DNA from: Reichenbachiella agariperforans
GTDB taxonomy: Bacteria; Bacteroidota; Bacteroidia; Cytophagales; Cyclobacteriaceae
Length of the DNA: 64,000 bases
Direction of reading: 5' to 3'
NCBI RefSeq assembly: GCF_900142205.1
Contig: NZ_FRAA01000001.1
Location: 650,803-714,802 of the forward strand
Shown: positions 21,921-64,000 of the stretch, in pieces
How positions within the stretch are numbered: position 1 is the first letter of the stretch
Layout of the letters: each line of letters starts with the position of its first letter
Translations under genes and position numbers: made by a program
Notes under the pieces: generated by a model
Seen by the model: the letters and a program-made list of their open reading frames with translations, nothing else
The model's database searches: none
Told to the model about the DNA's origin: nothing

Positions 21921-24086
21921 TTAATTCGATCGTACTATCACTCTAGAAACATTTATCATTGTTTTGTTAGACAACTTCAATAGGTAGATACCTTCGTCCA
22001 AATCGAGTTCAAGACTAGTATCTTGAATCAGCCCGCCATACGTTTCTTTATAAAGCAATTGCCCTCCCAAATCAAAAATTGAGACTTGATCAAAGGAATC
22101 ATTGCTGCGGATATTCAGAGTATTTGTGGTAGGGTTTGGATAAATCAATGTGCCTCTAGCTGCATGTGTTCCTACACTCAATACCTTATCAAGGTAAATC
22201 GCAACCAAAACAGACACTACATTCATCCCATCACTCACCTGTACAGTGAGTTCGTGAACAGGAGTCTCTTCTCGATCCAGTTGAAATGGATTGTTGAGTA
22301 AGATTTCGCCACTTTCCTGATTCATCCCGAATATCGCTAGGTGATTACCAGCAGTAATCTTATAACTGAGCGCTGCTCCCTCAGGATCTATGGCAGATAC
22401 AGTACCAACTACCACACCTCCAAGGGCATTTTCGGCCAAATGAAATGTATGGTTTTCCACTTCTGGCACTTTATTCAGCTCACTATCTATCTGGATTTTT
22501 TCTATTCCAAAGGCTCTTGCTGTAGCTCCAGTTTCGGCAGCCAAGGTTCCTGGAAAATAGGACAGCGTGGCATAATCAAAAATGGAAACTTGTTTATCCA
22601 ATTCAAAAACCAAAACGGTAGGATCTCCTTCCTTGACCGTCACACGATTGATCCCTACTCCGTTATCTGCAAAAACCCTAAAGTCCGCCTTGTCCAATGT
22701 CCCTGAATCAATGCTCTGATCAAAAGTCACTTCTAGCACATTCAAATCAACCAAACTGGCTTGAACAAATTCTAGCGCCTTGAGCTCTGCATCCCCTTCG
22801 TGAAGTTCGTAGACCGCACCATCATTGACCTTCTTTAGGGGTATATTAAATTCCTTCCATTTCTCTCCAAACTTAACCTCTACCCGATAGTCTCCATAGT
22901 AAGCATCAAAATTGATCGTTTCTGCCCCTCCCAAAATATAATCAAAGTTAGTCGCCCATAGCTCTTGGGTGAGATATAGCAAAGTATCAGCTGCCAATTT
23001 GGGGGTATGATCTGCAGTGAAAAAACCTGTATTTTCCCTCCAGGCACCCGCATCGCTCAATCCCCAGCTAATCATACCATTGATCGAGGGATGTGAAAAA
23101 GCCACCGTGGCTACTTTGATAAAATCTTCGGCCTGTTGCGCTTCAGTCAAATCTCCACCATAGTCATATTCGGTCAATCTCATGGGAAGGCCTACTTCTG
23201 CTATCTTGTTGACTTGCGTCACAAAATCGTTGATATCCGGACGACAGCAATCCCAAAAATGTGCTTGTAATCCAACACCTGTTACCGGAGCTCCCTTATC
23301 TATCATGTCGTTTATTAGGGTCACATATTCATCCGCATCGCCCCATCCAAACTCTACATTGTAATCATTGACATAGAGTTCAGCATCTGGGTCAGCCTCT
23401 CGTGCCCAGATAAAGCTCTTCCAATTGAGGGAATCTCCGTACAACTCTTGTGTATAGGTGGCATGTAGTGGTTCATTTATCACATCATATTCTTTGATCA
23501 CGCCTTTGTATTTGGTGACTTCACGCTTGATCCGATCTTCACATTCGTCATACACGGCTTGTGCAGCCCCCAAATTGGTCACCCACTGTGGCATGGCATG
23601 ATTATCTCCTTCAGCACCTCCCCATAGCAAGGTGTGAGCCCTCAATTCCCAACCTACACTTTGGGTCCATTCTACCGCATGATCAAAATTGGTATAGTCT
23701 GGGCCATTGCCATATGGGTCTATTCCGCTCCATTTGAATGAGTTCCCCGACACTCCATAGTTGAAATACTTGTACATAGCGGCTTTCATCCATTGAGTTT
23801 CGGTTGGCACATCCGTATCTATATCTCCTTCATAGAAGTCAAACGACATCCCAAACGGGTATTCATGCTTGGCCATTCGAACCTTCACTTCGCCCGTATA
23901 GGCTTGACCATTTATATCATATATTTCAATCCCAAACTCGCCACGTCTTAAAGTATCTATGCGCTCCTGCGCTTGATCATACCACTCTTCTGTGGATTGT
24001 GACTGTACCTGATGGGCAAACAACAAAACAAAAAAAAGCCACAAGGTACCTAGGACTCTAGTTTTTGATAAAATCTTAGTATTCAT
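21921..24086 (-). CDS. GH10 endo-beta-1,4-xylanase with cadherin-like and T9SS domains
   Basis: A 721-residue secreted protein. After the signal peptide (to about residue 30) comes a short beta segment, then a GH10 barrel to about 385 with acid/base Glu205 in EYDVINEPL and nucleophile Glu306 in RLTEYDYGG. The region 430-540 looks like a SwmB/Big-type beta domain (LEVTFDQSIDSGTLDKADFR). Residues 545-640 are cadherin-like (SAIDPEGAALSYKITAGNHL). Residues 650-721 form a type A T9SS sorting domain (YPNPTTNTLNIRSND and GIYLLKLSN). It should be exported by T9SS to the cell surface. The position in the barrel of GGAEGDNHAMPQW replaces the usual WHSQ region, so this is a divergent GH10 (perhaps acting on decorated xylan). 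Confidence 0.93.
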   Translation of the reverse strand: MNTKILSKTRVLGTLWLFFVLLFAHQVQSQSTEEWYDQAQERIDTLRRGEFGIEIYDINGQAYTGEVKVRMAKHEYPFGMSFDFYEGDIDTDVPTETQWMKAAMYKYFNYGVSGNSFKWSGIDPYGNGPDYTNFDHAVEWTQSVGWELRAHTLLWGGAEGDNHAMPQWVTNLGAAQAVYDECEDRIKREVTKYKGVIKEYDVINEPLHATYTQELYGDSLNWKSFIWAREADPDAELYVNDYNVEFGWGDADEYVTLINDMIDKGAPVTGVGLQAHFWDCCRPDINDFVTQVNKIAEVGLPMRLTEYDYGGDLTEAQQAEDFIKVATVAFSHPSINGMISWGLSDAGAWRENTGFFTADHTPKLAADTLLYLTQELWATNFDYILGGAETINFDAYYGDYRVEVKFGEKWKEFNIPLKKVNDGAVYELHEGDAELKALEFVQASLVDLNVLEVTFDQSIDSGTLDKADFRVFADNGVGINRVTVKEGDPTVLVFELDKQVSIFDYATLSYFPGTLAAETGATARAFGIEKIQIDSELNKVPEVENHTFHLAENALGGVVVGTVSAIDPEGAALSYKITAGNHLAIFGMNQESGEILLNNPFQLDREETPVHELTVQVSDGMNVVSVLVAIYLDKVLSVGTHAARGTLIYPNPTTNTLNIRSNDSFDQVSIFDLGGQLLYKETYGGLIQDTSLELDLDEGIYLLKLSNKTMINVSRVIVRSN

Positions 24087-24190: not shown

Positions 24191-27100
24191 CTATTGCAGT
24201 AGTACCTTCCACGCACCACTATCCGATTTCAGAAAGTAAATTCCTGGATTGGTGGTATCGAAAGAAATGGATGTGATCCCTGTGATATCATTGAACCCCG
24301 TCTTTCTGACTGGGATCTGATTACCTTGTAAGTCATAGGCGAAGAACTGCTCCCCCATCGAGGTATTGGTGATATATACCTCGTGAGAATGGCTTGGTAC
24401 CGGGTAAACATTATGTTTCACTTTGACACTAAGTCCATTGCCATTAAAGTACTTCTCTGCTAATGCAAATGCATCTCTCCCGATCCTTCCTCCCATCATT
24501 CTTCCAGACAGGTCGTCAGCTGGTGGATGGATACCACCCCAAATTCGGGACAAGCTACATTGATCGGATGCATCGCGATAGGTCGCCCATTGCAAAACTA
24601 CATCTTGACTTGGTCCCTCTTCAAACACCAAAAATTTATTCTTTTTGGCTGTAAATTCTCCCATCCCTCCTGGGAAATAGTCACTTCCTGTCAAGCGCGT
24701 AAGCACTTCAGCTGCGGCTCTGGAATACGTCGAATGACCCGACACATACCCCGCAAAAGGAGGTGTCACGAATGATGGGCGTTGATAAGGCCACCAATTC
24801 TCAGCAAGAATCCAATCCACTCTAGCCTCATCCTTCTCTGGATCATCGATGTAATCATGCCCCTTCCAAGCAAAAAGTTTAATTTTTCCTACATGTTGGT
24901 TTTCATGACCTGCCAACGGGTCTCCTACTTTGACTACTTCGATATACCCCTCTATCAACGGTATACCGTCCGAATGGTAGTTGTCAAGAGATGGGTCAGT
25001 GCATTGTCCCTGATCTGCCATATAGCGGATAGCCGAGATCGGTCGTATAAAATCATACCACCCTTTGACTCCCCAAGAGGCTATAGCTGCATCATGCATA
25101 GCACCTCCTAGCGTGAAATAAGCCTTTACATCCCACTCCAACGGATTAATTACTCCATCCTGCCCCTTGAACTTTCGCTCAAAATCAGGATGATCATGTA
25201 CATAGTTTAGTATAGTAAACCAATGACCAGGTGGTGTTTCAGAGTCTGGCCCATCGGCCCAAAACTCTGCTAAAACTCTGGCATAATCTCCTCTAGCTAC
25301 TATTTGGGGTTGATACGCTTGTCCCGTGACAGGATTCACTGATCGCCCCTGACCAATATCTCCACCTTCAAATAAATCATAAAAACCTTCGTAATCAGAC
25401 AGCTCTGAAGGCAGGTCATGAAAGTCGACACTACCAATGCCTCGTGGAGAAATATCCCACATCACGCCATCACTGGGGTCTAGGTGTGAACTCCAAATAG
25501 CGACCAACGAGAAGTTCCACTTGTACACATCTACATCTGAAGAAGCCATTTTAGCCTGATTGATCTTGGGTGGCGTGCCTGGATCGTGATATACAATGTA
25601 TTCATTGCCATTACGACTATAATGAGTGGCGCTTTCTTCCCTAAGGCTAAATGGTTTCACATTGCCCCACTCAGGACTCAGAAAAGAAGGTGTATTACCT
25701 GATATCGGATTACCAGCCTGATCGATGAACACCTGAAACTGTAGTGGCTGCCATCGATTCGGGTTTTCTATAGTAGGGTTGCCTGGCAAAACAGGTACCA
25801 GCGGAGCATTGACAGGTTGGTAGTATTCGTTGGAGTATTGATTGCTTTCATTCGCACCATCAATTAAGCCATATTCTATCATGGATTGAGCAATGAAATT
25901 GCCCAAAGCCGCTGGATCTCCTCCTCTATAATCCGAGAAGTTGTTGTAGGGGTCATAGCCCAAGAGAAGCATTAGTTCATCAAACCTATCTTGAGTGACT
26001 TTCTGATTAGGTGAATGCCTAAACCTATAAGTCAAAAGTCGATAAGCCGCATAACTGATCGCTATATCTAAGGCTTCTCCTTTTTCTATCAATGACTCAA
26101 ACCCATCAAAACTATTGTTATAGTTATATAATTGTTTTCCAATCAAATAAGGGTCTGCCCCACCACTGATAATAGCCCAGGCATCATACATCACTATGCT
26201 TGCATGAAAAAGGTTCCTTGCATGGACAGTAGGTCTGGCGAAATCCACACGAATAGCCGACAACAAAGCCTCATTCCACAGACGAGCAACAGAGACATCA
26301 TAATCCACCTCGTCCGATACTATGGCTACATCCAGTGCTATCTCTTGACTGTAGCATTTTCCCTTTTCGGTCACTGCTACTTGTCCATACTGTCCTATAC
26401 CCCATTGTACAGTGATCGATTCGGTACCCTGACCATGTAGAATATGTCCGTTACTTACTGTCCATTGATAGTCATTACCCTGCACTTTGGGATAAGAGTA
26501 TGTGAATGTACTCAAAGGACCTACTAACACTCGCCCACTAATGGGGTTTGATTTTAAATACTCACATGATCCATCATCAAAAGTTGCGGTCACCTCATAA
26601 TTACACGAATTAGGATCTGTGCAACCTGATATTTTATCACTTGATAAGCTCAGCGTTTGATAACCTATTCCTTCGGTCACGTGGATAAAAGAATTAACTG
26701 GAACATCATCATACCTGTCAATGATACCTGATGTCCAAGCAATGACCACCTCATCAATTGACTCAATATTTGCAAGACCAAAATGTACTGGTATTTGATT
26801 TTGCATCATTAGTCCTGCACCCTGATAGTAACGTTTGTACATCTTACCTCCAGCCTGTAAAGTCACCAATGTACCGATAGCATCTCGATTAGACTTAACC
26901 CCCTCTAGGTCAATCTTTACCCAATTTTGTCCCCCTTCATTGCCCCCTGAGATCACTTGGTTTTCATAAAACCCTAATGCGCCTGCAGTTCGTCCTATCA
27001 ATACATCCAAATCACCATCATTATCATAGTCAAATACCGTCAAGCCATTTGAAATAGAACTCTTTCCAAAAGCACTTTGCTCGGAATGATCCAAAAACAT

Positions 27101-28213
27101 CATCCTCCCCGTCTCCAGTGTGTTTTCATAGTATCTGTCCTGATCATTGTTATAGTATCCATTAGCCACTACCAAATCCATGTCTAGATCATGATCAAAA
27201 TCTGCAAATCCGCACCCCCAGCCCCAGCCAGTCAAAAACACATCAACCTCTTTAGATACATTTTGAAATACCCCTCCACTGTTGCGAAACAGGGAACTTT
27301 CGTTAATATTAGTCACATATAAATCCAAGGAGCCATCATTGTCATAGTCTGCATAGGCGACTCCCATACCGTCCATAAACTTGTCAGACACACCGTACGC
27401 TTCGGCTTGATCTACAAAATACCCTGTCCCATCATTAACATACAGTTCATTGCTCGCTCCAAAATCATTGGCAATGTAAAAATCCTGATGACCATCCTCA
27501 TTTACATCTAGCGGAATAGCCGTCCAGGCAGAGCGCCCACTATCCTTAACACCCGCTTCCTCTGACACTTCAGTAAAAGAAGTACCCCCGTTGTTTCTAT
27601 ACAATTTGCCCCTGCAACTGGACACGGTAATCACCCCAGAAACATATAAATCAAGAAAAGAATCGTTGTTATAATCAAACCAGAGACCTACGACATTGAT
27701 ACATTCATTTGTATCAATGATGCCCATCTCAGTCGTGACGTCAGTAAACGTTCCGTCCCCATTATTTAAGTACAGTTCTAGATAGATAGAGTTCGTTAGG
27801 AACAAATCGGCATAGCCGTCATTGTTAAAATCTCCCCATGAAGCTCCCATTTTTTCACCAAATGGATGTGGGCTTTGGGGTCTGTTTACAGAATAATCAT
27901 GGGTACTTTGAATACCCGACTGTGTTGTTACATTAGTAAATGTACCGTCATTATTGTTTTGAAAAAGCTGACTGGAAGCGGGGTTTTGCCCATCCCAACG
28001 GGTCACAGCAAACACATCTAAGTCTCCATCATTGTCATAATCGGCTACTGCTACTCCATTATTATTAGATACCTCCGATAGCTTGCTCTGAAGACCTATT
28101 TCTTTGAATTGCTGTGCCTGAAGAACTGATCTACCAGCCAAAAACAAAAAAAGTAAAGTTATAAAACACTTTAGGTTAGTTTTCTTCCATATTGTCCATC
28201 TCATCTTTCTCAA
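24191..28213 (-). CDS. VCBS/UnbV-vanadium haloperoxidase fusion with T9SS tail
   Basis: A 1340-residue secreted protein. After the signal peptide come several VCBS/FG-GAP repeats (DYDNDGDLDVF and similar Asp-rich calcium loops, about 40-420), an ASPIC/UnbV domain (AIGTLVTLQAGGKMYKRYYQ, about 440-510), one GCTDPNSCNYEVTATFDDGS motif (about 525-545) and a PKD-like segment. Residues about 640-1250 form a vanadium-dependent haloperoxidase/PAP2 domain with FIRP, FAGYVSGHSTYSRA (about 1150) and SRIWGGIHPPADD (about 1223), the Arg-Pro, Ser-Gly-His and Arg-His vanadate/phosphate-binding sets. It ends in a T9SS-type domain (VYPVPSHSHEVYITN). Haloperoxidase or phosphatase activity is inferred from motifs. 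The setting inside a xylan locus is unusual. Confidence 0.85.
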   Translation of the reverse strand: MRKMRWTIWKKTNLKCFITLLFLFLAGRSVLQAQQFKEIGLQSKLSEVSNNNGVAVADYDNDGDLDVFAVTRWDGQNPASSQLFQNNNDGTFTNVTTQSGIQSTHDYSVNRPQSPHPFGEKMGASWGDFNNDGYADLFLTNSIYLELYLNNGDGTFTDVTTEMGIIDTNECINVVGLWFDYNNDSFLDLYVSGVITVSSCRGKLYRNNGGTSFTEVSEEAGVKDSGRSAWTAIPLDVNEDGHQDFYIANDFGASNELYVNDGTGYFVDQAEAYGVSDKFMDGMGVAYADYDNDGSLDLYVTNINESSLFRNSGGVFQNVSKEVDVFLTGWGWGCGFADFDHDLDMDLVVANGYYNNDQDRYYENTLETGRMMFLDHSEQSAFGKSSISNGLTVFDYDNDGDLDVLIGRTAGALGFYENQVISGGNEGGQNWVKIDLEGVKSNRDAIGTLVTLQAGGKMYKRYYQGAGLMMQNQIPVHFGLANIESIDEVVIAWTSGIIDRYDDVPVNSFIHVTEGIGYQTLSLSSDKISGCTDPNSCNYEVTATFDDGSCEYLKSNPISGRVLVGPLSTFTYSYPKVQGNDYQWTVSNGHILHGQGTESITVQWGIGQYGQVAVTEKGKCYSQEIALDVAIVSDEVDYDVSVARLWNEALLSAIRVDFARPTVHARNLFHASIVMYDAWAIISGGADPYLIGKQLYNYNNSFDGFESLIEKGEALDIAISYAAYRLLTYRFRHSPNQKVTQDRFDELMLLLGYDPYNNFSDYRGGDPAALGNFIAQSMIEYGLIDGANESNQYSNEYYQPVNAPLVPVLPGNPTIENPNRWQPLQFQVFIDQAGNPISGNTPSFLSPEWGNVKPFSLREESATHYSRNGNEYIVYHDPGTPPKINQAKMASSDVDVYKWNFSLVAIWSSHLDPSDGVMWDISPRGIGSVDFHDLPSELSDYEGFYDLFEGGDIGQGRSVNPVTGQAYQPQIVARGDYARVLAEFWADGPDSETPPGHWFTILNYVHDHPDFERKFKGQDGVINPLEWDVKAYFTLGGAMHDAAIASWGVKGWYDFIRPISAIRYMADQGQCTDPSLDNYHSDGIPLIEGYIEVVKVGDPLAGHENQHVGKIKLFAWKGHDYIDDPEKDEARVDWILAENWWPYQRPSFVTPPFAGYVSGHSTYSRAAAEVLTRLTGSDYFPGGMGEFTAKKNKFLVFEEGPSQDVVLQWATYRDASDQCSLSRIWGGIHPPADDLSGRMMGGRIGRDAFALAEKYFNGNGLSVKVKHNVYPVPSHSHEVYITNTSMGEQFFAYDLQGNQIPVRKTGFNDITGITSISFDTTNPGIYFLKSDSGAWKVLLQ

Positions 28214-45726: not shown

Positions 45727-45730
<4 letters not shown>

Positions 45731-48195
45731 TTAGCTGCTTTTAAATTGTAGGTTTTACCTGGCTCAGTTGTCAGGTCGTATTCATATATCTTCTTCAATT
45801 CCAAACCTTTAAAGTTGGCCTCCTTAGCAATCAAAGGTTTTTTGATATTAGGTTGCTGGTAAAAAGGGTTGCTGTTCTTACCTGTCGCTTCTTCTAGTCC
45901 ATCCCCAACGAGCGGATAATAAGATCTAACTCGGCAGCCCCCTCCCAATTGAGAAGTAATTTTAACTTCTTTCGCTAAACTGCTTTCCCACTTGATATCC
46001 ACTTCAAAACCACCTCTAGCTCTTAAACCTCTTACTTCACCTTGACTCCAATCGTCTGGTAAGGCTGGCAAAACATGCAAAGCACCGTCATGACTCTGCA
46101 ATAGCATCTCTGCTATCCCTGCGGTACAACCAAAATTGCCATCGATCTGAAATGGTGGATGTGCATCGAAGAGATTAGGGTAAGTTCCTCCTTGTTCGCC
46201 CTGGGCTTGTACCGATGGACTCAACTGATCTTTGATGAGTTTCATCGCATGGTTTCCATCCAAAAGACGAGCCCATAAATTCACTTTCCAGCCCATCGAC
46301 CAACCCGTCGATTCATCTCCTCTGGCTACCAGTGAAGTCCTCGCTGCGTCAAAGAGTTTAGGAGTCTTATAGGGTGAAATCTGGTTAGATGGGTATAAAC
46401 CATATAAATGAGACACATGACGGTGATGATCTTCTGGATTGTCCCAGTCATACATCCATTCTTGTAGCTGTCCCCATTTCCCTATTTGCATCGGGGGCAG
46501 CTCCTCAAGCCTCTTGTTCAACTCAACAACCAATGCCTTGTCTGTGCCTAAAATATCGGCTGCCTGCGCCGTGCGGCTAAACAAATCAAATATCAACTGG
46601 TTGTCCATGGTGGTGCCTGCTGATACCGATGCTCTATGATCTGAATAGGGAGCGTTTTCCGGAGATATTGATGGCACGATGACTTGCCGCCCCTTGTCCG
46701 GGTCTTTGACCATAAAGTCCTGATAGAAAAGGCAAGCCTCTCTCACCACCGGATAGACAGACGTTAAGAAAGCTCTGTCACCCGAATAATCGTACTTGTC
46801 GAACAAATGCTGTGACAACCAGGCACCTCCCATCGGCCACATACCCCAAAATGCTCCATCAACAGGGCCCGTTATCCGCCAAATATCTGTATTGTGATGA
46901 GCTACCCAACCTCTGGCTCCATACATGTCTTGGGCCGTCTTCCTTCCGGTGTAGGACAAATCCTTCACCATCTCCACCAAAGGTTCATTCAAAGTCGGGA
47001 GATTGGTGATTTCAGAAGGCCAATAGTTCATCTCCGTATTGATATTGATCGTGTACTTGCTATCCCATGCTGGCTTTAGTTGGTCGTTCCATATCCCTTG
47101 CAGATTAGCTGGCTGACCACCAGGTCTGGAGGAGGAGATCAATAAATATCGCCCAAACTGGAAATAAAGGGCAGCAAGCTGTGGGTCATTTCCACTGGAA
47201 AAATCGACGATTCTTTGATCTGTAGTATTGTATGCAGAATCCGTATTGCCCAAATCCAATGTTACCCGACGAAATAGCTTCTGATAGTCAGCAATATGAT
47301 CTAGCAATAATTGGTCAAAGCCTTTTTCAACTGCGGCTTGCAGAGATTTTGCCGCTTTTTCTGAAGCATCTCCATTTAGGTCATCGTAGCGTTCAAAGTT
47401 GGAAGCTATAGAAATGTAAATGGTGGCCGCATTGGCCTTTTCCACTTCGATTTTTTGATGCTCAGTCTTTACTGTGCCTCCATCTGCTTCGATTTGTATT
47501 TGGAGCTCAAAATTCACTTGTCCTTGAACACCCTCATGGTCACTGCCACGGGCAGAAAGTACAAGACCATTGCTACCCAATGTTGACACATCAAACTCCC
47601 CGGGTCGATCCAGATTGGCCGAAAAACTCAACTCGTCAGCTTGGTCCGCCGATAACTGTACTGCCATCACCTGATCAGGATAGGACGAAAAGACCTGAGT
47701 TTGATACCCAATTCCATTTTTGGTGTATCTCGTTGTTGTGATTGCCCTATCCAAATCAAGTTCGCGGTAGTAGTTCTGATAAGCTTCATCATCACCAAAA
47801 TCCAACCTTAAATTACCGGCAGTCTGATAGGACATTCCATTTTTCCCACTAAAGAAAGTTTGATTGATGAGCTGCTGGGCTTCTTCGTATTGCTCTTCGA
47901 ATATAAGCTCACGTACACGATTCAAAGATTCCTTTGCCGCGGGATTATCATTGCGGTGGGGACCTCCTGCATAAATGGTATTTTCATTGAGCTGGATCAA
48001 TTCCTGCCCAGGTCGTCCATAGACCATTGCCCCTAATCGACCATTGCCCACAGGCAAGGCTTCTACCCAGCGCTCTGCAGGCTCGTCATACCACAGCTTC
48101 AATTCAACTGTATCCTGACTTTGTCGATCCGCACAAGACAAAAACCCAAAAATACTGGTCAAAAAAATCACCAGTAAAGAGATACCATTTCTCAT
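45727..48195 (-). CDS. GH95 alpha-L-fucosidase/alpha-L-galactosidase
   Basis: An 822-residue lipoprotein, lipobox FLSC (cysteine 21). The N-terminal beta domain starts [20 protein letters not shown], the classic GH95 opening. Residues matching those of characterised GH95 enzymes are all present: Asn384 and Asn386 in [12 protein letters not shown], Glu513 in [11 protein letters not shown], and Asp685 in FQIDGNFG. The [13 protein letters not shown] motif is also typical. GH95 enzymes invert and remove alpha-1,2-L-fucose; some act on alpha-L-galactose in complex glucuronoarabinoxylan, which fits this locus better. Fucose removal from xyloglucan remains possible. Confidence 0.95.
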
Positions 48196-49559: not shown

Positions 49560-50777
49560 TTATTTCTGATATAAGTCAATGATCTCTTGTACTACAGCTT
49601 TGGGTTGGTTTTCTCTATCGAAGAGCAAAGGGTAATCGGTACGTCCTTTGATTGGCCAATTGTTTTTCCATGAATGGTCGTCGGTCACCCCCCACAGTGT
49701 TACTCGGTCTATTTTGTCTTCATGCTTCAAAAACAGCTTGTACAGGTCCAGGTATCGCTGGTCGAATTTCTTCTGTACTTTTTTTGGCAAACCGTCCGGA
49801 TATGGATTCATTCTTTCCTCATAGCTGACATTGGTCGAAACATCCGCACCCATATCACCCCACGGCGATGGAAGAACAGTTATGTCCAGTTCTGTGATAC
49901 TCACCTTCAATCCCAATTCTGAAAAAGCCAAAATACTCTTCTCAAATTCATCTAATGAGGGATAATCCAGACCCAAGTGCCCCTGCATGCCAATGCCATG
50001 AATCGGAATCCCTGCTTCTTGTAAACTCTTGACCATGGCCACTACCCCAGCTCTACGGCCCGGGTTACTCATGGAATAGTCATTGTAGTAAAGCTCAGCC
50101 TCAGGATCTGCCTCGTGGGCAAACTGGAAGGCCAGTTTGATAAAGTCTTCTCCAATGATTTTGTAGAATTTACTCTCGCGCCAAGACCCGTCATCTTCTA
50201 TCGCTTCGTTGACCACATCCCAGGTATCAATACGACCTTTGTATCGACCAACCACTGTATAGATATGATCCCTCATTCGGCGGATCATTTCTTCTCTGGA
50301 CACTTGATTGCCATCATCATCAGTAAAAAACCATTTGGGCGCCTGCGAATGCCAAACCAAGGTATGCCCTGTAATAAACATGTCATTTTGCTCTCCAAAA
50401 TCCACGAAGGCATCTGCCCAATTGAAGTTAAACTCTCCCTTTTTGCGCTGAAGCCAGCCGCTTTTCATCGTATTGCCGGATACAATAGCATTGAAATGTT
50501 CTGTAATAATATTTTGAATAGTGGTGTCATTACCTACTATCGTCTGAGGGACATTGAGCGCTGCGCCCGTATAAAATTTGTCCCCGATCCCGTCCTTGAA
50601 AGATGTGATTTTTTGTGCTTGGGAAAAAAAAGGTATTAAAATGAATAGTAGTGCAGAATAACTCAAAGTAGTTATTCGATTATAGTCTAGGGTCAAAAGA
50701 TGCCTTAAAACTGGATTTGCACTATATCTTGATACATTATTTTGCTTCTCAGCAAGAGTAAATTTATTTGATGTCAT
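49560..50777 (-). CDS. GH10 endo-beta-1,4-xylanase
   Basis: A 405-residue enzyme with a complete GH10 barrel from about 60. Substrate-site motifs FNAIVSGNTMKSGWLQ and FITGHTLVWHSQAPKW are intact, acid/base Glu191 lies in WDVVNEAIEDD, and nucleophile Glu296 in SITELDITVLP. It cleaves internal beta-1,4-xylosidic bonds. There is an odd N-terminus: 35 polar residues precede the hydrophobic SYSALLFILIPFFSQAQ. A TTG in frame just upstream of SYSALL would give a normal signal peptide, so the annotated ATG at 50777 may be too far upstream. No sorting domain or CBM. Likely periplasmic. Confidence 0.95.
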   Translation of the reverse strand: MTSNKFTLAEKQNNVSRYSANPVLRHLLTLDYNRITTLSYSALLFILIPFFSQAQKITSFKDGIGDKFYTGAALNVPQTIVGNDTTIQNIITEHFNAIVSGNTMKSGWLQRKKGEFNFNWADAFVDFGEQNDMFITGHTLVWHSQAPKWFFTDDDGNQVSREEMIRRMRDHIYTVVGRYKGRIDTWDVVNEAIEDDGSWRESKFYKIIGEDFIKLAFQFAHEADPEAELYYNDYSMSNPGRRAGVVAMVKSLQEAGIPIHGIGMQGHLGLDYPSLDEFEKSILAFSELGLKVSITELDITVLPSPWGDMGADVSTNVSYEERMNPYPDGLPKKVQKKFDQRYLDLYKLFLKHEDKIDRVTLWGVTDDHSWKNNWPIKGRTDYPLLFDRENQPKAVVQEIIDLYQK

Positions 50778-57641: not shown

Positions 57642-59783
57642 TTACATCCCTTCCAACCCATCAGCAAAAGCTGAATAGGCAGGTTTTCTATCCAAGTCCG
57701 AATACCACAGACCCTGTATAGCATCTGTATCAAACGCACTTGAAACACTTACACCATAGCGCTGGGCTGCAGGCACATGCTCGGCGTACATATCCAAAAC
57801 GTATTTGTACATATCAGCCTGTTCCATCATCAGCTCATAACTTACTTCTGCATCACCGAGACCAACGGAGAGATCAGAGATTCTGACCAGCTTTCCTGTC
57901 TCTGCCAGCATCTGTAGCATTTCTACAATGCTCTCCTTGTTAGAGGTCACTGAGATATTCATTTGTGCGCTAATACCATCTACCGTAGCACCCTGCTCTT
58001 CGATATAAGCAACATAATCGATCAAGCCCTGACACTTGTCAAGATTAGAAGCCATGTTGCTTTCAGTGATAAACAGCTTGTCACCTTCATTGCCATATTC
58101 TCTGGCCCAGTTAAATGCCTTCACAGCATAGTCCTTGCCCAGATAGTCTTGCCAATAGAACTCTCCAGCTGGCACTTCTTCTCCTCCGCCTTTCAGGTCG
58201 CTAGGGTTGTTATCATCCATCGGATTGCTGACGACATCCCAGGCCATCACATTTTCCTTGGAGACTTCCATCACTCCTGCGATGTATGTCTCCATCGCGT
58301 AACTCAAAGTATCGTTCTTTTCCTCTGGAGTTAACTCAATGACTTGCTCACCACCACCTTCTTCGTTGTACCACCTTACCTCTATGTTGTCAAAGTAGTA
58401 GCTTGTGGCAGTACTACCCAAATTGAAAGCTATAGTATTACACTCCGAGGTCTCTGCAGAAATTGTAATTTGAACGTTGACAGAAGTCCACTCTGTAGTA
58501 GCATTGATAGCCCCGAAAAAATCCCAGTGTTTGTAAGCTCCTGGTGCCGTCTGCGCCTGAGTCGCCATAGTAGCTGCTGCATCAGCACGGACATCCATGG
58601 TCAATTGCAACTGCTGTCCTTCTTCTGTAGGAGTACCGAAGTTAAAAAACAATTGAGACTCCCAATCGTTTTCTCGAACCGCTGAGTTGGTCACAACCAA
58701 AGCTCTACCACTTCCTTCTGCTCCTTCTCCACTAGCTGTAAAAGACAAAGCCGCAGCAGCCTCATCATTGCTTTGATAGTTAGAAGCATCGTCTGTTTCA
58801 AAATCGTTTCCAGACAACAAACCCCAAGTAGGGCCTCCACCACCCTCTTCATTGAATTTATCTACAACTATATTGTCAAAGTAATAGCTGGTAGCCGTAT
58901 TACCTAGATTTAAAGCAATGGTATTACATTCAGAAGTTTCGGCTGTAACCGTGATCTCTACTTCAATTGAAGTCCATTCGGTAGTAGCATTAATAGCCCC
59001 AAAGAAATCCCAATGCTTATACCCCCCTGGTGCTGTTTGGGCTTGAGTCGCCATAGTAGCGGCAGCATCCGCCCGTACATCCATCCTTAGACGATACACA
59101 TCTCCTTCTTCTGTCGGCGTCTCAAAAGTCACAAATAATTGCGACTCCCAATCATTCTCACGAACAGCCGAATTTGTGACAACTAGCGCTCGACCACTTC
59201 CACCTGCACCTTCTCCATCCGCAGTAAAAGACAAAGCTGCAGCAGTTGCATCGTTACTTTGATAGCCAATAGCATCATCTGTTTCAAAATCCAGATTTAC
59301 TTGTTCTTCCCATTCAGGGCCTCCAGAAGCAGGGATGATAGTTGGTGCTATAGTTGCATTCAGATAGGTCGAATTTTGATTGTTATTAGCAACCAAACCA
59401 CCCCCATGAACTGACAAACCTACTCCGGTAGACGTTTCTACGAAACTCTCTAGATCTGTAGTTACAGAGCTACCATCTGCCTGCACAATCGTACCATGAC
59501 TAATGCCGACTGCCTCTATTTCGGTAAAGTTGCTGTTGACCAAGCGAGAGTTGACACCTTGCCCCATATAGTTGGACAAGTCAACTTTTGTGCCCAATAG
59601 TAACCCCTCAGCTTTGTAAGCTGTCAGTTCATTATAAGCATTGATTGCTTCTTGTTGCTCCACACTAACAGGCTTTTCGACAACATAGGCCAAATCAGTA
59701 TAATCGGCACAGGATGTTGCGCCAACAATTAGCGCAAGCATCCATACCATTTTATATGTATTTTTCATGTCCTTCATTTTCAT
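57642..59783 (-). CDS. Catalytically degenerate GH10 lipoprotein with tandem CBM insertion, probable surface xylan-binding protein
   Basis: About 713 residues (start among ATGs at 59783 or 59768) with lipobox GATSC. It has the architecture of Bacteroidota Xyn10 enzymes in which two CBMs are inserted into the GH10 barrel: first barrel part about 40-155, two near-identical 145-residue CBM4/22-like modules (about 167-315 and 330-475), second barrel part about 485-700. The catalytic barrel has decayed: WDVVNE is WDVVSN (acid/base Glu lost), the TELD nucleophile region is SDLS, QMHI is QMNI, GHTLVWHSQ is GGGLVANNNQ and NDYNL is TESNM. Hydrolysis is therefore unlikely. Next to SusC/D, it fits a surface glycan-binding lipoprotein. 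Residue numbers count from the GTG at 59792. Confidence 0.9.
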   Translation of the reverse strand: MKMKDMKNTYKMVWMLALIVGATSCADYTDLAYVVEKPVSVEQQEAINAYNELTAYKAEGLLLGTKVDLSNYMGQGVNSRLVNSNFTEIEAVGISHGTIVQADGSSVTTDLESFVETSTGVGLSVHGGGLVANNNQNSTYLNATIAPTIIPASGGPEWEEQVNLDFETDDAIGYQSNDATAAALSFTADGEGAGGSGRALVVTNSAVRENDWESQLFVTFETPTEEGDVYRLRMDVRADAAATMATQAQTAPGGYKHWDFFGAINATTEWTSIEVEITVTAETSECNTIALNLGNTATSYYFDNIVVDKFNEEGGGGPTWGLLSGNDFETDDASNYQSNDEAAAALSFTASGEGAEGSGRALVVTNSAVRENDWESQLFFNFGTPTEEGQQLQLTMDVRADAAATMATQAQTAPGAYKHWDFFGAINATTEWTSVNVQITISAETSECNTIAFNLGSTATSYYFDNIEVRWYNEEGGGEQVIELTPEEKNDTLSYAMETYIAGVMEVSKENVMAWDVVSNPMDDNNPSDLKGGGEEVPAGEFYWQDYLGKDYAVKAFNWAREYGNEGDKLFITESNMASNLDKCQGLIDYVAYIEEQGATVDGISAQMNISVTSNKESIVEMLQMLAETGKLVRISDLSVGLGDAEVSYELMMEQADMYKYVLDMYAEHVPAAQRYGVSVSSAFDTDAIQGLWYSDLDRKPAYSAFADGLEGM
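58368..59294 (-). repeat. Tandem CBM-coding repeats (two copies)
   Basis: Two direct repeats of about 440 bases (58848-59294 and 58368-58805). Their proteins share long identical stretches such as SAVRENDWESQLF and KHWDFFGAINATTEWTS, while the DNA differs mainly at third codon positions. They are separated by a short Gly/Glu-rich linker. Confidence 0.85.
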
Positions 59784-59793
59784 AGTTTGCACA

Positions 59794-60885
59794 TTAATTC
59801 ACTATTGGCGTAAAAAGTTCTATGTCCACACCACGATTTCTGATGACCAAAGTATCTATAGTACTATAGTGCACAGTCTCCGTATCTATTACACCTGCGT
59901 CCTGATAATCAATCTCTACATCATACCCAACTTCGTAGTTTAGATACAAACCATCTCGATCCTGATCACCCCAGCTTTTAACTTCACCATCCTCTACGAA
60001 CTGTCCAGTGCCTGTTGCCACAAAATTATATACTCTTACAGAGTCATTGACCTGATAAGTATCATTCAACGCAGACACAGTGATGTTAAGATCATCATCC
60101 ACAGTCAGGTTCATTTCCAGATTAAGATTCTGTCCTTCCTTATTCTGATAATCCAAAGGAAAATGAACTTCGGTCATGGAGCGAGTAGTCAATTGCCATA
60201 CCGCATCATCCTCAACATACTGCTGATGACGAACTTCTGTAGTGTTGACACCATCTTTGGTGACTTCATCAACACCTCTCCTTAGGTAGTATCCATGCCA
60301 TGGATTGATGTACTTGATCGCATACAAGATGAAATCTTTGGGCTGTACACTCCAATCACCCGCTACAGCTGGTCTTGGGTTTTCTACCTGAGGAACACCT
60401 GATAGAATAGAATCAGCTGCGGTCACATTGGACATTTGCACAGGGATCACGTAGGTGTTTCGAATCGCCTCCGGATCAGCAAAGAAAGCCTCTGTCAATT
60501 GCACCTCAACTCCACCTGTCAACTCCCCTTTCTTGATGACGATTTGATCATCAGAAAGAGAATAATAGGTAGTTGGCATGATCAACAGATCTGTACCATT
60601 ATCGAATTGTAGATCCTGTGCATAATTATTATCAACAGAGATATCTACAGTCACATCATGCGGGTTGCTATATACACCACCTGTGGTGGCCATGATCTTG
60701 CATTTCCACTCATTGTCTAGTGTCGTATCAAATATATCATCCCCTAATACAATAGTCCTGACAGGATATTGATAGGAAAAATATACCGACTGATACTCAA
60801 AGTCATTAAACTCCCAGTCCTTGTTGTGACAAGAGGTCAATCCAACCAGTGCAGTACTAAATAATATTAAAAATATCTTTTTCAT
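59794..60885 (-). CDS. DUF1735-like lipoprotein of a SusCD locus
   Basis: A 363-residue lipoprotein, lipobox GLTSC (cysteine 19). Mature start HNKDWEFNDFEYQSVYFSYQ and the DVTVDISVDNNYAQDLQFDNG/ PTTYYSLSDDQIVIKKGELT stretch are typical of the DUF1735 (BT_3987-like) beta-sandwich; the second half (AGDWSVQPKDFILYAIKYIN, WHGYYLRRG) resembles the DUF5627 type. Such proteins are found right after SusD and are considered accessory surface glycan-binding proteins. The next gene (the GH10-like lipoprotein) begins about 10-25 bases downstream depending on its start. No catalytic motif. Binding of xylan is inferred from context. Confidence 0.82.
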   Translation of the reverse strand: MKKIFLILFSTALVGLTSCHNKDWEFNDFEYQSVYFSYQYPVRTIVLGDDIFDTTLDNEWKCKIMATTGGVYSNPHDVTVDISVDNNYAQDLQFDNGTDLLIMPTTYYSLSDDQIVIKKGELTGGVEVQLTEAFFADPEAIRNTYVIPVQMSNVTAADSILSGVPQVENPRPAVAGDWSVQPKDFILYAIKYINPWHGYYLRRGVDEVTKDGVNTTEVRHQQYVEDDAVWQLTTRSMTEVHFPLDYQNKEGQNLNLEMNLTVDDDLNITVSALNDTYQVNDSVRVYNFVATGTGQFVEDGEVKSWGDQDRDGLYLNYEVGYDVEIDYQDAGVIDTETVHYSTIDTLVIRNRGVDIELFTPIVN

Positions 60886-60905: not shown

Positions 60906-62669
60906 TTACCATCCCATATTTTGCTCTAAAGCACCATACTTGAGCATTTCATTGAAAGGCACCGGACCATAGATCATATAATCATCGAACACCCTATTTT
61001 CTACAGAAATAACTTGGTGATTTCCATTTTCGATGCGTACACCTAGTGCAGCCTCTGTCAAATCCTCTTCCCATCTACGCAAATCCCAAAAACGGAAACC
61101 TTCAAAGCATAACTCTAATCTTCTTTCGTTCTTGATCAATTCGCGCATATCTTCGGTACTACCTTGAGCCAGTGTCAGGTAAGGGTCAGTTCCTGCTGTA
61201 CCCAATCCTGCTCTTTGGCGAATCGCCGAGATCACATCTACTGCAGAGTAAGCGTTGCCTCCTGTACCGGTAGGCCCAAATGCTTCGTTGGCTGCTTCTG
61301 CATAGATGAGGTAAATTTCTGTATAGCGAATATGAGGATCCAGGTGCGCTTGTCCATTGGTCGCATTTGGATCCAAATTCACATCACTTCTGAGCAGTTT
61401 GCGCAAATAGTAACCTGTTCGAGTAGCATTTTCACTTTGGTTTAAGCCGTCATTGGTATCACCGTCAACAGCTGTATTAACGACACCTCCACTAGCACCA
61501 AAAGTATCTCCATTCACAATGATGAACTGGCGCAACCTCGGGTCTCTGCCGGTATAAGGATCCGATGGATCAAAACCGCTCGAAGGATCCGTGATTGGGT
61601 ATCCATTGTCCATAGGGAAAGCATCTACCAGGTTTTGGGTAGGATTGACAAGTCCATTTCCAAACAAAGTTGGAGGGTAGTTGTCTGCTTCCAAATCGCT
61701 GTTCACATCTGCAATACTGGTTCTCCATAGTATTTCATCAGGGTTGACTCCCCCTCCTACGTCTGAGATGCTGACATCATCAAACCAAGTCACTCCATCA
61801 GCTGCTAAACCAGCCACTCCACCATTTAGATCAATGACTTCTGCTGCATAAGCAGCCGCATCCGCCCACGTCGTACTGTTATTGGCACTGAATGCAGGAC
61901 TAGTCGCCATGAGTGCCGCCTGTGCACGCACCGCACGAACGATTCGTCCAGAGATCAACAGTCGGGCATCATCCCCAAACACTCTTTCATAGTCTGGTAC
62001 TCCTGCTCCTTCTGCCACGTACTTCTCTGGAATTAGGGACTCATCACCAATATTGGTATAGTCATCGGGCAACAAAGCTAAAGCTGCCTCAGAATCAGCG
62101 TAGAACTGCTGCATACACTGCTCGAAAGTAGCTCTAGGCACATTAAACTCTGAAGACAAATTTTTAGATCCCAAAACAATAGGTACACCTAAGAGTTCAC
62201 CTCCATTGCTCATGCCTCCATGTGCTTGAAGCAAATAGTACATAAACAAAGCTCTAAGCCCATAGATTTCGCCCGTGATCCGATCCTGAAACATCTCATT
62301 GACGACAGGCGTCTCAGAGAATTTCACAGAATCCACCGTTTCCAACATCAAGTTGAGGTATTGGATGGCCGCTCTAGAATTAGACCATTGCTCCATTGGG
62401 TTGTTGTTGGCTGCCCACTGGCCTGTCCCCAAAGCATAGAAATTATCATCTTGGTCATTGGAAACGGCATTGTCAGTAGCCATGTCACTCAGGTCATTGC
62501 CGATGGTGGGTATCCGTCCATAGCCGTTTTGAAGCAAACCATGAGCAAACCGAGGCTCATTGAATCCCTCTTCCAGCCCACGGTTGTTTTCGATCGCAGG
62601 CTCTATCAGGTCATCACATCCTACTAGGACAAAGATGATAGCTAGATATATTAATATATTCTTATTCAT
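60906..62669 (-). CDS. SusD/RagB-family glycan-binding lipoprotein of the xylan locus
   Basis: About 587 residues with lipobox LVGC (start ATG at 62669; another ATG three codons upstream). SusD hallmarks: TPR-like helix GEIYGLRALFMYYLLQAHGG near 135, a large glycan-binding insertion, and C-terminal signature NERRLELCFEGFRFWDLRRW. It should cap the SusC transporter encoded upstream and bind xylo-oligosaccharides. The spacing to the SusC stop is about 20 bases, and DUF1735 lipoprotein follows 20 bases downstream. The SusC/SusD/DUF1735/GH10-like order equals that of known xylan loci in Bacteroidota. Confidence 0.94.
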   Translation of the reverse strand: MNKNILIYLAIIFVLVGCDDLIEPAIENNRGLEEGFNEPRFAHGLLQNGYGRIPTIGNDLSDMATDNAVSNDQDDNFYALGTGQWAANNNPMEQWSNSRAAIQYLNLMLETVDSVKFSETPVVNEMFQDRITGEIYGLRALFMYYLLQAHGGMSNGGELLGVPIVLGSKNLSSEFNVPRATFEQCMQQFYADSEAALALLPDDYTNIGDESLIPEKYVAEGAGVPDYERVFGDDARLLISGRIVRAVRAQAALMATSPAFSANNSTTWADAAAYAAEVIDLNGGVAGLAADGVTWFDDVSISDVGGGVNPDEILWRTSIADVNSDLEADNYPPTLFGNGLVNPTQNLVDAFPMDNGYPITDPSSGFDPSDPYTGRDPRLRQFIIVNGDTFGASGGVVNTAVDGDTNDGLNQSENATRTGYYLRKLLRSDVNLDPNATNGQAHLDPHIRYTEIYLIYAEAANEAFGPTGTGGNAYSAVDVISAIRQRAGLGTAGTDPYLTLAQGSTEDMRELIKNERRLELCFEGFRFWDLRRWEEDLTEAALGVRIENGNHQVISVENRVFDDYMIYGPVPFNEMLKYGALEQNMGW

Positions 62670-62690
62670 TTCTTTCAATTTTTGTCCTAC

Positions 62691-64000
62691 TTAAAACATT
62701 GCTCTTAGTCCCAAATTGTAGAATCTGGTTTGTGGCGCACTGCCAATATTCATTTCCAGAATCTCACGATTAGGAGAGATAGTCAATAGGTTGGCTCCAT
62801 TGACATAGATACCGAGCTCTCGAATAAAGCTGTCAGGCCCTCCCAATAGGCTTTCAGGAAAATCGTAAGAAATCTGCACTCTAGACAAGTCAAAGCGATC
62901 AGTACTATACATCCAGAAATCAGAGTTTCTGAAATTATTGGCACCATTCAATGTCGTCAAACGAGGAAATGTCGCCGAGTTCTGCGTGTCCTCTGTCCAT
63001 CTTCCTCGAACTTCTTCAGAGTATTTGTCCTGACCATTGACCCAGAAATAATTGTTGTTCTTCATCCCATAAGCACCAGAGCGGTATGTTCCCAATGCGA
63101 AGAATGTGAAGTTTTTGTAATTGGCCGTGAGGTTAAAACCCATCGTCAAAGGAGCACCCGACCAACCCGCTCTACCCAAGTAAACTTCGTCCTGCGCATT
63201 GATGATTCCGTCATTGTTTTGATCCTTGTACTTGAGATCACCTGGTTGTACTTCACCCAATGCGATTTGATCTGGTGAATTTTGAATATCTGTAGCATCT
63301 GCAAAGAAGCCTAGATTTTCCAACCCCCAAATTGCGTCCAAAGGTTGTCCCTGTCTGTTTTGGTAAGCGTCCTCATACATCTCCGCGCGCTGGCTTGCTT
63401 CGGTAGTATAATAGATCCCTGACACACCTAAAGATAGTGCTAGCTCTCCCACATTTTGGTTCAGTCTTAGGTTAAAATCAACCCCCATCCGATCATCATT
63501 GTTGTAGTTCGTATATGGAACAAATGACCCACTAGGGTAGCCATTGGAAACAAAATAACTAGGAAACAGCACATTGTTTTGGACAGCAATACCAGATGTC
63601 TGACTGGCAAAAAACGACCCCTCAAAAACTATGGCATTGTCAAAAAGTGCAAAATCAAGACCCAAGCTCAACTCTCTTCTTTGTGGATAATCCAAATTAG
63701 GGTTAGATCCTCTTCGAGAGTCTGTACTTTGGTTAGAAAAACCATCCTTCCAAGTCACCCATGCTCCATCGGTCTGGTTATAAACTTGCTGATATAGATA
63801 GTAATCAGATGCGTCATCTTCATTATTTACATTTTGAATATCCAGATCAGTATTTAGAATACCACCCGAAACACTTAGTTTCAAATTGCTAAGAAAAGAT
63901 ACATCCTTCAGAAAAGCCTCCTCGCTCAAACACCATCCTAGCGTAGCTGTAGGAGAAATACTCTGACGGTTGTCCTCTGGTAACTTGGCCGAATGCACCA
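62691..64000 (-). CDS. SusC/RagA-family TonB-linked transporter, C-terminal part
   Basis: Partial: the reading frame is open to the right edge, so only about 436 C-terminal residues of a roughly 1000-residue protein are in the window. The sequence shows outer-membrane barrel strands (ELSLGLDFALFDNAIVFEGS, KNFTFFALGTYRSGAYGM) and an EF-hand-like DQNNDGIINAQDE loop typical of SusC extracellular regions. It ends in FYNLGLRAMF with a C-terminal phenylalanine. It forms the pore of the xylan oligosaccharide importer with the SusD encoded downstream. The start, plug and TonB box lie outside. Confidence 0.94.
   Translation of the reverse strand, partial: VHSAKLPEDNRQSISPTATLGWCLSEEAFLKDVSFLSNLKLSVSGGILNTDLDIQNVNNEDDASDYYLYQQVYNQTDGAWVTWKDGFSNQSTDSRRGSNPNLDYPQRRELSLGLDFALFDNAIVFEGSFFASQTSGIAVQNNVLFPSYFVSNGYPSGSFVPYTNYNNDDRMGVDFNLRLNQNVGELALSLGVSGIYYTTEASQRAEMYEDAYQNRQGQPLDAIWGLENLGFFADATDIQNSPDQIALGEVQPGDLKYKDQNNDGIINAQDEVYLGRAGWSGAPLTMGFNLTANYKNFTFFALGTYRSGAYGMKNNNYFWVNGQDKYSEEVRGRWTEDTQNSATFPRLTTLNGANNFRNSDFWMYSTDRFDLSRVQISYDFPESLLGGPDSFIRELGIYVNGANLLTISPNREILEMNIGSAPQTRFYNLGLRAMF

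Follow-up and report, generated by a model that had tools for sequence, protein, structure and literature searches.

What does a xylanase-like lipoprotein do when the residues that would cut xylan have been replaced? This question is raised by a gene of Reichenbachiella agariperforans in the stretch of 64,000 nucleotides analyzed here (the window). With a probability of roughly 0.8, judged from its sequence and by analogy with characterized proteins, we consider it to encode a surface glycan-binding lipoprotein derived from a Xyn10C-like xylanase, in which the inserted CBMs would bind xylan and a non-cutting barrel would serve as scaffold. The gene and its parts are as follows.

57642 to 59783, minus strand: Xyn10C-like pseudo-xylanase lipoprotein, 713 aa (P0001; ORF, Pfam, alignments)
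59709 to 59783, minus strand: signal peptide with lipobox ATSC and Cys25 (read by eye, and alignment)
59340 to 59651, minus strand: N-terminal part of the GH10 barrel, aa 45-148 (alignment)
59376 to 59405, minus strand: GGGLVANNNQ, aa 127-136, in place of GHTLxWHxNQ (MAFFT alignment)
58848 to 59303, minus strand: inserted CBM copy 1, aa 161-312 (CBM_4_9 at 163-295, Pfam)
58362 to 58817, minus strand: inserted CBM copy 2, aa 323-474 (BLAST, position conservation)
57651 to 58349, minus strand: C-terminal part of the GH10 barrel, aa 479-711 (PF00331; Foldseek, 3w24)
58224 to 58226, minus strand: acid/base position 520, Glu replaced by Asn (3w24 and MAFFT alignments)
58053 to 58067, minus strand: TESNM in place of NDYNL (MAFFT alignment)
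57957 to 57959, minus strand: position 609, the QMH histidine replaced by Asn (MAFFT alignment)
57873 to 57875, minus strand: nucleophile position 637, Glu replaced by Asp (3w24 and MAFFT alignments)

The reading frame, opened by an ATG at 59783 and closed by a stop codon at 57642, is uninterrupted over its 713 codons; an alternative GTG start at 59792 would lengthen the protein by 3 aa. The Pfam model Glyco_hydro_10 (PF00331) matches residues 489-707 (E 3.9e-27, 95.7 bits, cut-off 22.1), and both this match and Foldseek on the predicted model place the protein among the GH10 (beta/alpha)8 barrels. The barrel is split into residues 45-148, with strands at 62-67, 88-91 and 124-127 in the AlphaFold model, and residues 479-711, and the two CBMs are inserted after strand beta3, a Xyn10C-like trait. 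A lipoprotein signal, as in surface glycan-binding proteins, is indicated by the lipobox and by Cys25, which is invariant in two alignments (18/18 rows of A1 and 27/27 rows of A2). An earlier sequence-only reading of this DNA had proposed both the Xyn10 layout (lipoprotein, GH10 barrel, two CBMs) and an intact frame, and Pfam and alignment bear this out on the minus strand. The CBM copies share 84% identity over 143 aa by BLAST (77% over 164 aligned positions) and are closer to each other than to their best same-position counterparts in seven other proteins (59 and 64%); the copies of another relative, L071, are likewise more alike than same-position counterparts elsewhere. Such mutual likeness would point to duplication or gene conversion. 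The best PDB match of this CBM type is weak (4mgq, E 1.9e-4), and its ligand is without structural precedent.

Fourteen active-site positions, picked from established GH10 biochemistry, were then read off the alignments, which comprised a phmmer alignment of the C-terminal half to 3w24 and a MAFFT alignment of the whole protein, 56 relatives and six further GH10 proteins. The window protein is altered at 12 of the 14, retaining W515 and Q607, and lacks both catalytic glutamates of a GH10 xylanase (N520, D637). Besides the replacements listed above, WDVVNE reads WDVVSN, QMHI reads QMNI and SELD reads SDLS, so the motif changes claimed from the sequence are present and lie at homologous positions. 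The same reading had asked whether the catalytic glutamates might sit at displaced positions; this was rejected, as no shifted glutamate was seen in either alignment, and the non-catalytic state that it proposed agrees with the residues lost. In relatives about as close (for example L081-L084 and L033-L036, 42-53% identity), all 14 positions are unchanged, which argues that the changes are not noise of divergence.

Relatives were collected by searching 295 genomes from the family to which the window belongs, by one scan of genome contigs (27 loci) and by profile searches of the order, phylum, family and class. From 101 rows, L059 (truncated) and L091 (without GH10 sites) were excluded, leaving 99 in the tree, of which two are outgroups (L002, L090) and 97 are members of the protein family. 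These 97 rows fall into 75 with 0-2 of the 14 sites changed (hereafter intact) and 22 with 6-13 changed (degenerate), with none at 3-5. Such frequencies are biased because each search started from the window protein or from a profile built on degenerate members, and scoring was limited to the two or three best first-look candidates of each genome. In 20 of the 22 degenerate members one or both catalytic glutamates are lost, and in 19 the nucleophile, replaced by D, G, A, S or N; the acid/base glutamate is retained in 14 and elsewhere replaced by N, Q, D or G. Two members, L071 and L104, retain both glutamates, and some of the 22, these two by name, may still be active. In the 295-genome draw (E 1e-40 or better, at most three candidates per genome), 18 of 41 Xyn10C-like genes were degenerate, spread over 11 genera of the window's family. 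Each of the 18 is matched by the Pfam GH10 model (E 0.001 or better), the window protein far over the cut-off, so annotation would probably label them xylanases. A later sample of 123 genomes from the order of genome G1300 (Bacteroidales, by its tree neighbors) yielded 18 aligned ORFs, nine of which entered the tree, the rest being repeats, truncated copies and one single-domain GH10 (L195); seven of the nine show 0-1 changes, L190 shows 11, and L189 shows five, including the acid/base position.

The retained glutamates bear on whether the window protein might still hydrolyze a glycan, perhaps one other than xylan, through Asp637 and an unrecognized acid. Aspartate does place a carboxylate at the nucleophile position, one or both glutamates persist in some degenerate relatives, and active-site mutants of the Xyn10C-like enzyme Pm25 are described as keeping activity two to three orders of magnitude lower (PMC7848910). 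Even so, we consider residual hydrolysis highly improbable, since the window protein combines an acid/base Asn with Asn519 to Ser, H609 to Asn, W681 to Ser, Y575 to Ser, H128 to Gly, W132 to Ala and H133 to Asn.

If the enzyme is lost, the gene might simply be decaying, the protein drifting without function. The window protein does stand on a long end branch (0.69 and 0.57 changes per column in two trees), and no full-length relative was found in seven other genomes of its genus. Against decay, the frame of 713 codons is open, 67 of 92 barrel positions and 49-50 of 52 CBM positions are retained, and the degenerate clade of the window protein, with 18 members, spans 11 genera of the family. In addition, dN/dS is low in the two related degenerate pairs that were measurable out of 13 (barrel 0.053 and 0.074, CBMs 0.060 and 0.108; the window gene is not among them), which shows that these pairs are under purifying selection, at a barrel dS of 1.21 and 1.85 (overall 1.2-1.9) that is near saturation. 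Decay is thus very unlikely, and the pseudogene reading was rejected on the conservation of the frame and of barrel and CBM positions and on the dN/dS of related pairs, in line with the earlier claim that the gene is not decaying. As a separate observation, one genome of the genus (G212) carries a 650-aa ORF (L091/L170) that matches the window protein mainly in the CBM part (residues 208-471, E 9.7e-5); when aligned, it lacks the GH10 active-site motifs.

A comparison of what is kept and what is lost points to a binding lipoprotein with a barrel scaffold. The barrel reference set comprised the 92 positions at which 97% or more of 57 intact members agree; by construction, intact members keep at least 98% of them, and degenerate members retain 58-76. 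Cleft positions are among those most often lost, being retained in 1 (Y575), 2 (H609, H128), 3 (Q607, E637, N519) or 4 (W681) of the 22, and thirteen barrel positions (L53, G64, G104, Q136, W544, K583, D602, K631, G677, W693, R699, K700 and Y703) are kept in all 22 and offer a testable map of a scaffold or docking surface. CBM positions are mostly retained in the 20 degenerate members with inserts of type A or B. Type A units keep 49 (window copy 1), 50 (window copy 2) and 47 (L131) of 52 conserved positions; those of L071 keep 42 and 44, so CBM retention is not uniform. Type B inserts keep 60-66 of 66 positions in 17 degenerate members. Among degenerate members of type B (16 rows) the p-distance is 0.454 for the barrel and 0.325 for the CBMs, whereas intact ones (21 rows) differ in the opposite direction (0.290 and 0.345); L104 was omitted from one distance comparison. 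Two degenerate members from different families, L115 and L133, carry a third insert type (C), which is absent from the intact members of the set.

The fold was modeled, as the sequence-only reading had suggested, and the sequence proved compatible with a GH10 fold. The AlphaFold2 model, built on a 27-sequence alignment, has a mean pLDDT of 85 and a pTM of 0.55, and, of the 24 blocks of ten residues that begin at residue 481, 18 reach a pLDDT of at least 88. In Foldseek, the top matches by E-value were multidomain GH10 xylanases with poor overall rmsd, and several single-domain GH10 xylanases matched at 2.0-2.6 A over 230-250 columns (3w24, rmsd 2.0 over 230). As the alignment behind the model consists of intact relatives, this shows compatibility with the fold, not folding, and the fold may be carried over.

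The idea of an inactive GH10 protein that binds xylan is not new. BACOVA_03431 of the Bacteroides ovatus locus PUL-XylL, which the sequence-only reading did not mention, is described as a surface lipoprotein with GH10 similarity that has lost its nucleophile, is inactive on xylans and binds xylan, and its authors, writing in 2015, called it the only natural inactive GH10 described so far (PMC4491172). Like the window gene, it has lost the nucleophile; by locus tag it neighbors BACOVA_03430, and both PUL-XylL and the window cluster contain two SusC/D pairs and GH95, GH97 and GH43 proteins. The window gene shows the same combination of a lost nucleophile with an adjoining BACOVA_03430 homologue and SusC/SusD; the two proteins are likened by description and neighbor gene, with binding measured for BACOVA_03431 only. 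Among the full texts searched, the locus tag BACOVA_03431 occurred in PMC4491172 alone, and no survey of degenerate Xyn10C-like proteins was found in the literature searched, mostly without subscription papers. What is new is that the degenerate state is widespread in at least one bacterial family, occurs in others and probably arose several times.

An architectural parallel is offered by Pm25, BACOVA_04390 and BACINT_04215, which share with the window protein a CBM-interrupted barrel after beta3, a surface signal peptide and the susC-susD-unk arrangement (PMC7848910). Unlike the window protein, Pm25 has both putative catalytic glutamates, and Pm25 and BACOVA_04390 cut xylan, if slowly. The E546A mutant of Pm25 still binds xylan, mostly via its CBMs and much like the CBM tandem (PMC7848910). 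Because this mutant and BACOVA_03431 bind xylan, we infer that the window protein would do so too. The main binding site might be the barrel cleft rather than the CBMs, the cleft having adapted to a chain that is intact or highly decorated. BACOVA_03431 binds xylans (PMC4491172; likened without regard to its CBM content), the CBM-free Pm25 barrel still binds xylans, if more weakly, and xylohexaose as well as or better than single CBMs (Kd 1.5 mM against 1.8 and 4.7 mM; PMC7848910), and a recurrent replacement, NDY to (N/S)ES, occurs in 15 of the 18 main-clade rows. We regard cleft binding as possible though rather doubtful, for cleft residues vary from lineage to lineage and CBM positions hardly at all, and polymer binding by Pm25 is dominated by its CBMs, with no binding of wheat bran by its CBM-free barrel (PMC7848910). 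Loss of hydrolysis with retention of binding, the CBMs presumably contributing most, is the reading that best suits the degenerate members. A caution comes from Segatella copri GH26B, like the window protein a predicted surface glycoside hydrolase of a PUL with both catalytic residues changed, which is conserved in 62 further genomes; according to the portions consulted of PMC12704710, hydrolysis was not found and none of the glycans tested was bound. GH26B differs in its family (GH26), in that those portions mention no CBM insert, and in having no ligand found.

The surroundings of the gene carry the argument further.

59794 to 60885, minus strand: lipoprotein, homologue of BACOVA_03430 (PDB 3N91; Pfam, PDB search)
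60906 to 62678, minus strand: SusD-like protein (Pfam)
62691 to 64000, minus strand: SusC-like protein, extending past the window (ORF, flanking sequence L208)
49560 to 50777, minus strand: intact single-domain GH10 with WDVVNE and ITELD, in the same cluster (Pfam, alignment)

The neighboring lipoprotein matches 3N91 at E 1.5e-77, its sole PDB match up to E 1, and consists of DUF5627 and BT_3987-like_N, which we take to be the domain formerly named DUF1735; the SusC/SusD and DUF1735 neighbors named in the sequence-only reading are thus present. The order susC-susD-unk lies directly upstream of the window gene, as in Xyn10C-like loci, and a second SusC/SusD pair lies further upstream, beyond the window (L208). 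Among 76 loci examined, SusC, SusD and the lipoprotein precede all 22 degenerate genes. For intact genes, SusD and the lipoprotein were found at 46 of 54 loci (of the 46, one duplicates a protein that had entered the count, and one lies on a contig that stops short of SusC), and in the fetched stretches of the other eight nothing similar to the window's SusC, SusD or lipoprotein was present. This shared position indicates that the degenerate protein occupies the place of a Xyn10C-like xylanase, and the survey of SusCD loci agrees with the surface PUL lipoprotein position proposed earlier. The lipobox pattern matched 18 of the 22 degenerate members, and the other four have the aligned Cys. At one locus (L206, 8859-13661), a single PUL holds both states: a degenerate Xyn10C-like gene, with an acid/base Asp and the nucleophile Glu kept, and immediately after it an intact one.

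From these data we infer the following for the window protein. The ancestor would have been a Xyn10C-like surface xylanase of a xylan utilization locus, and its two inserted CBMs would now hold xylan at the outer membrane. The barrel would support the CBMs and may dock on the SusC/SusD complex, an idea taken from the glycoside hydrolase and SGBP lipoproteins docked on SusC/SusD in utilisomes (PMC7618045). Surface exposure would match the location reported for BACOVA_03431 and BACOVA_04390; BACOVA_03430 (PDB 3N91, by the legend of the paper) bound none of the xylans tested (PMC4491172). Cutting would be left to other enzymes of the cluster: the intact GH10, a T9SS-tailed GH10 at 21921-24086 (catalytic motifs in place, by eye) and GH5 and GH43 proteins. 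The GH5 proteins include two with T9SS tails. The cluster also encodes GH95, GH97, GH3 and GH9 proteins, an arabinofuranosidase, a glucuronoyl-esterase-like protein and other esterases, a content that fits complex xylan. A GH5 neighbor was considered as the compensating enzyme and rejected as not specific, since in the fetched stretches it also adjoins intact copies and is absent from several degenerate loci.

How often the degenerate state arose was addressed with several trees. In the first (67 rows, active-site columns removed), 18 degenerate rows formed one branch (100/98), with the caution that the long branches L001 and L071 meet there. In the 99-row tree, the 22 degenerate rows require four changes, two of them forced by well-supported branches, and an AU test did not reject a single degenerate clade (p 0.13). 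A quick tree (LG+G4) of SusC, SusD and the lipoprotein requires five changes, four forced by supported branches, and here a single clade was rejected for 22 rows (p 1.4e-80) and for the 19 left without L065, L066 and L072 (p 5.4e-7); the remaining 15 rows of the main clade were not rejected as one clade (p 0.62). This test presumes that the three neighbors travel with the xylanase gene. For L065, L066 and L072, the neighbors fall among intact loci of another genus and the xylanase among degenerate ones; these PULs are probably recombined mosaics. A quick tree with the nine Bacteroidales rows gave five changes by lost glutamates and three by the number of changed sites. Trees that need more than one change, together with the neighbor-gene rejection, make several origins likely, and the varied residue replacements and insert types fit several losses. 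The degenerate state therefore probably, not certainly, arose several times.

We hold it an even bet that Bacteroidota have repeatedly and independently turned the surface xylanase at the Xyn10C-like position in xylan loci into a non-cutting xylan holder, with the barrel kept solely for docking the CBMs on SusC/SusD. If so, the setting of the utilisome to "cut or hold" would shift readily in evolution, and GH10-profile annotation would miscall many such proteins as enzymes. The degenerate proteins amount to an experiment of nature that could show what a PUL gains from a surface endo-enzyme.

Two further proteins of the window deserve mention. The GH95 protein at 45727-48195 has as its best PDB match 4UFC (E 1e-263), which we take to be the L-galactosidase BACOVA_03438. 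Where PMC4491172 names Thr370, Asn372 and Asn374, the window protein reads T-I-N-I-N by eye, so that it may act as an alpha-L-galactosidase on complex xylan. Finally, a 1340-aa ORF at 24191-28213 within the xylan cluster has FG-GAP and UnbV_ASPIC repeats and, after them, the haloperoxidase-like domains VCPO_2nd and DUF6851.
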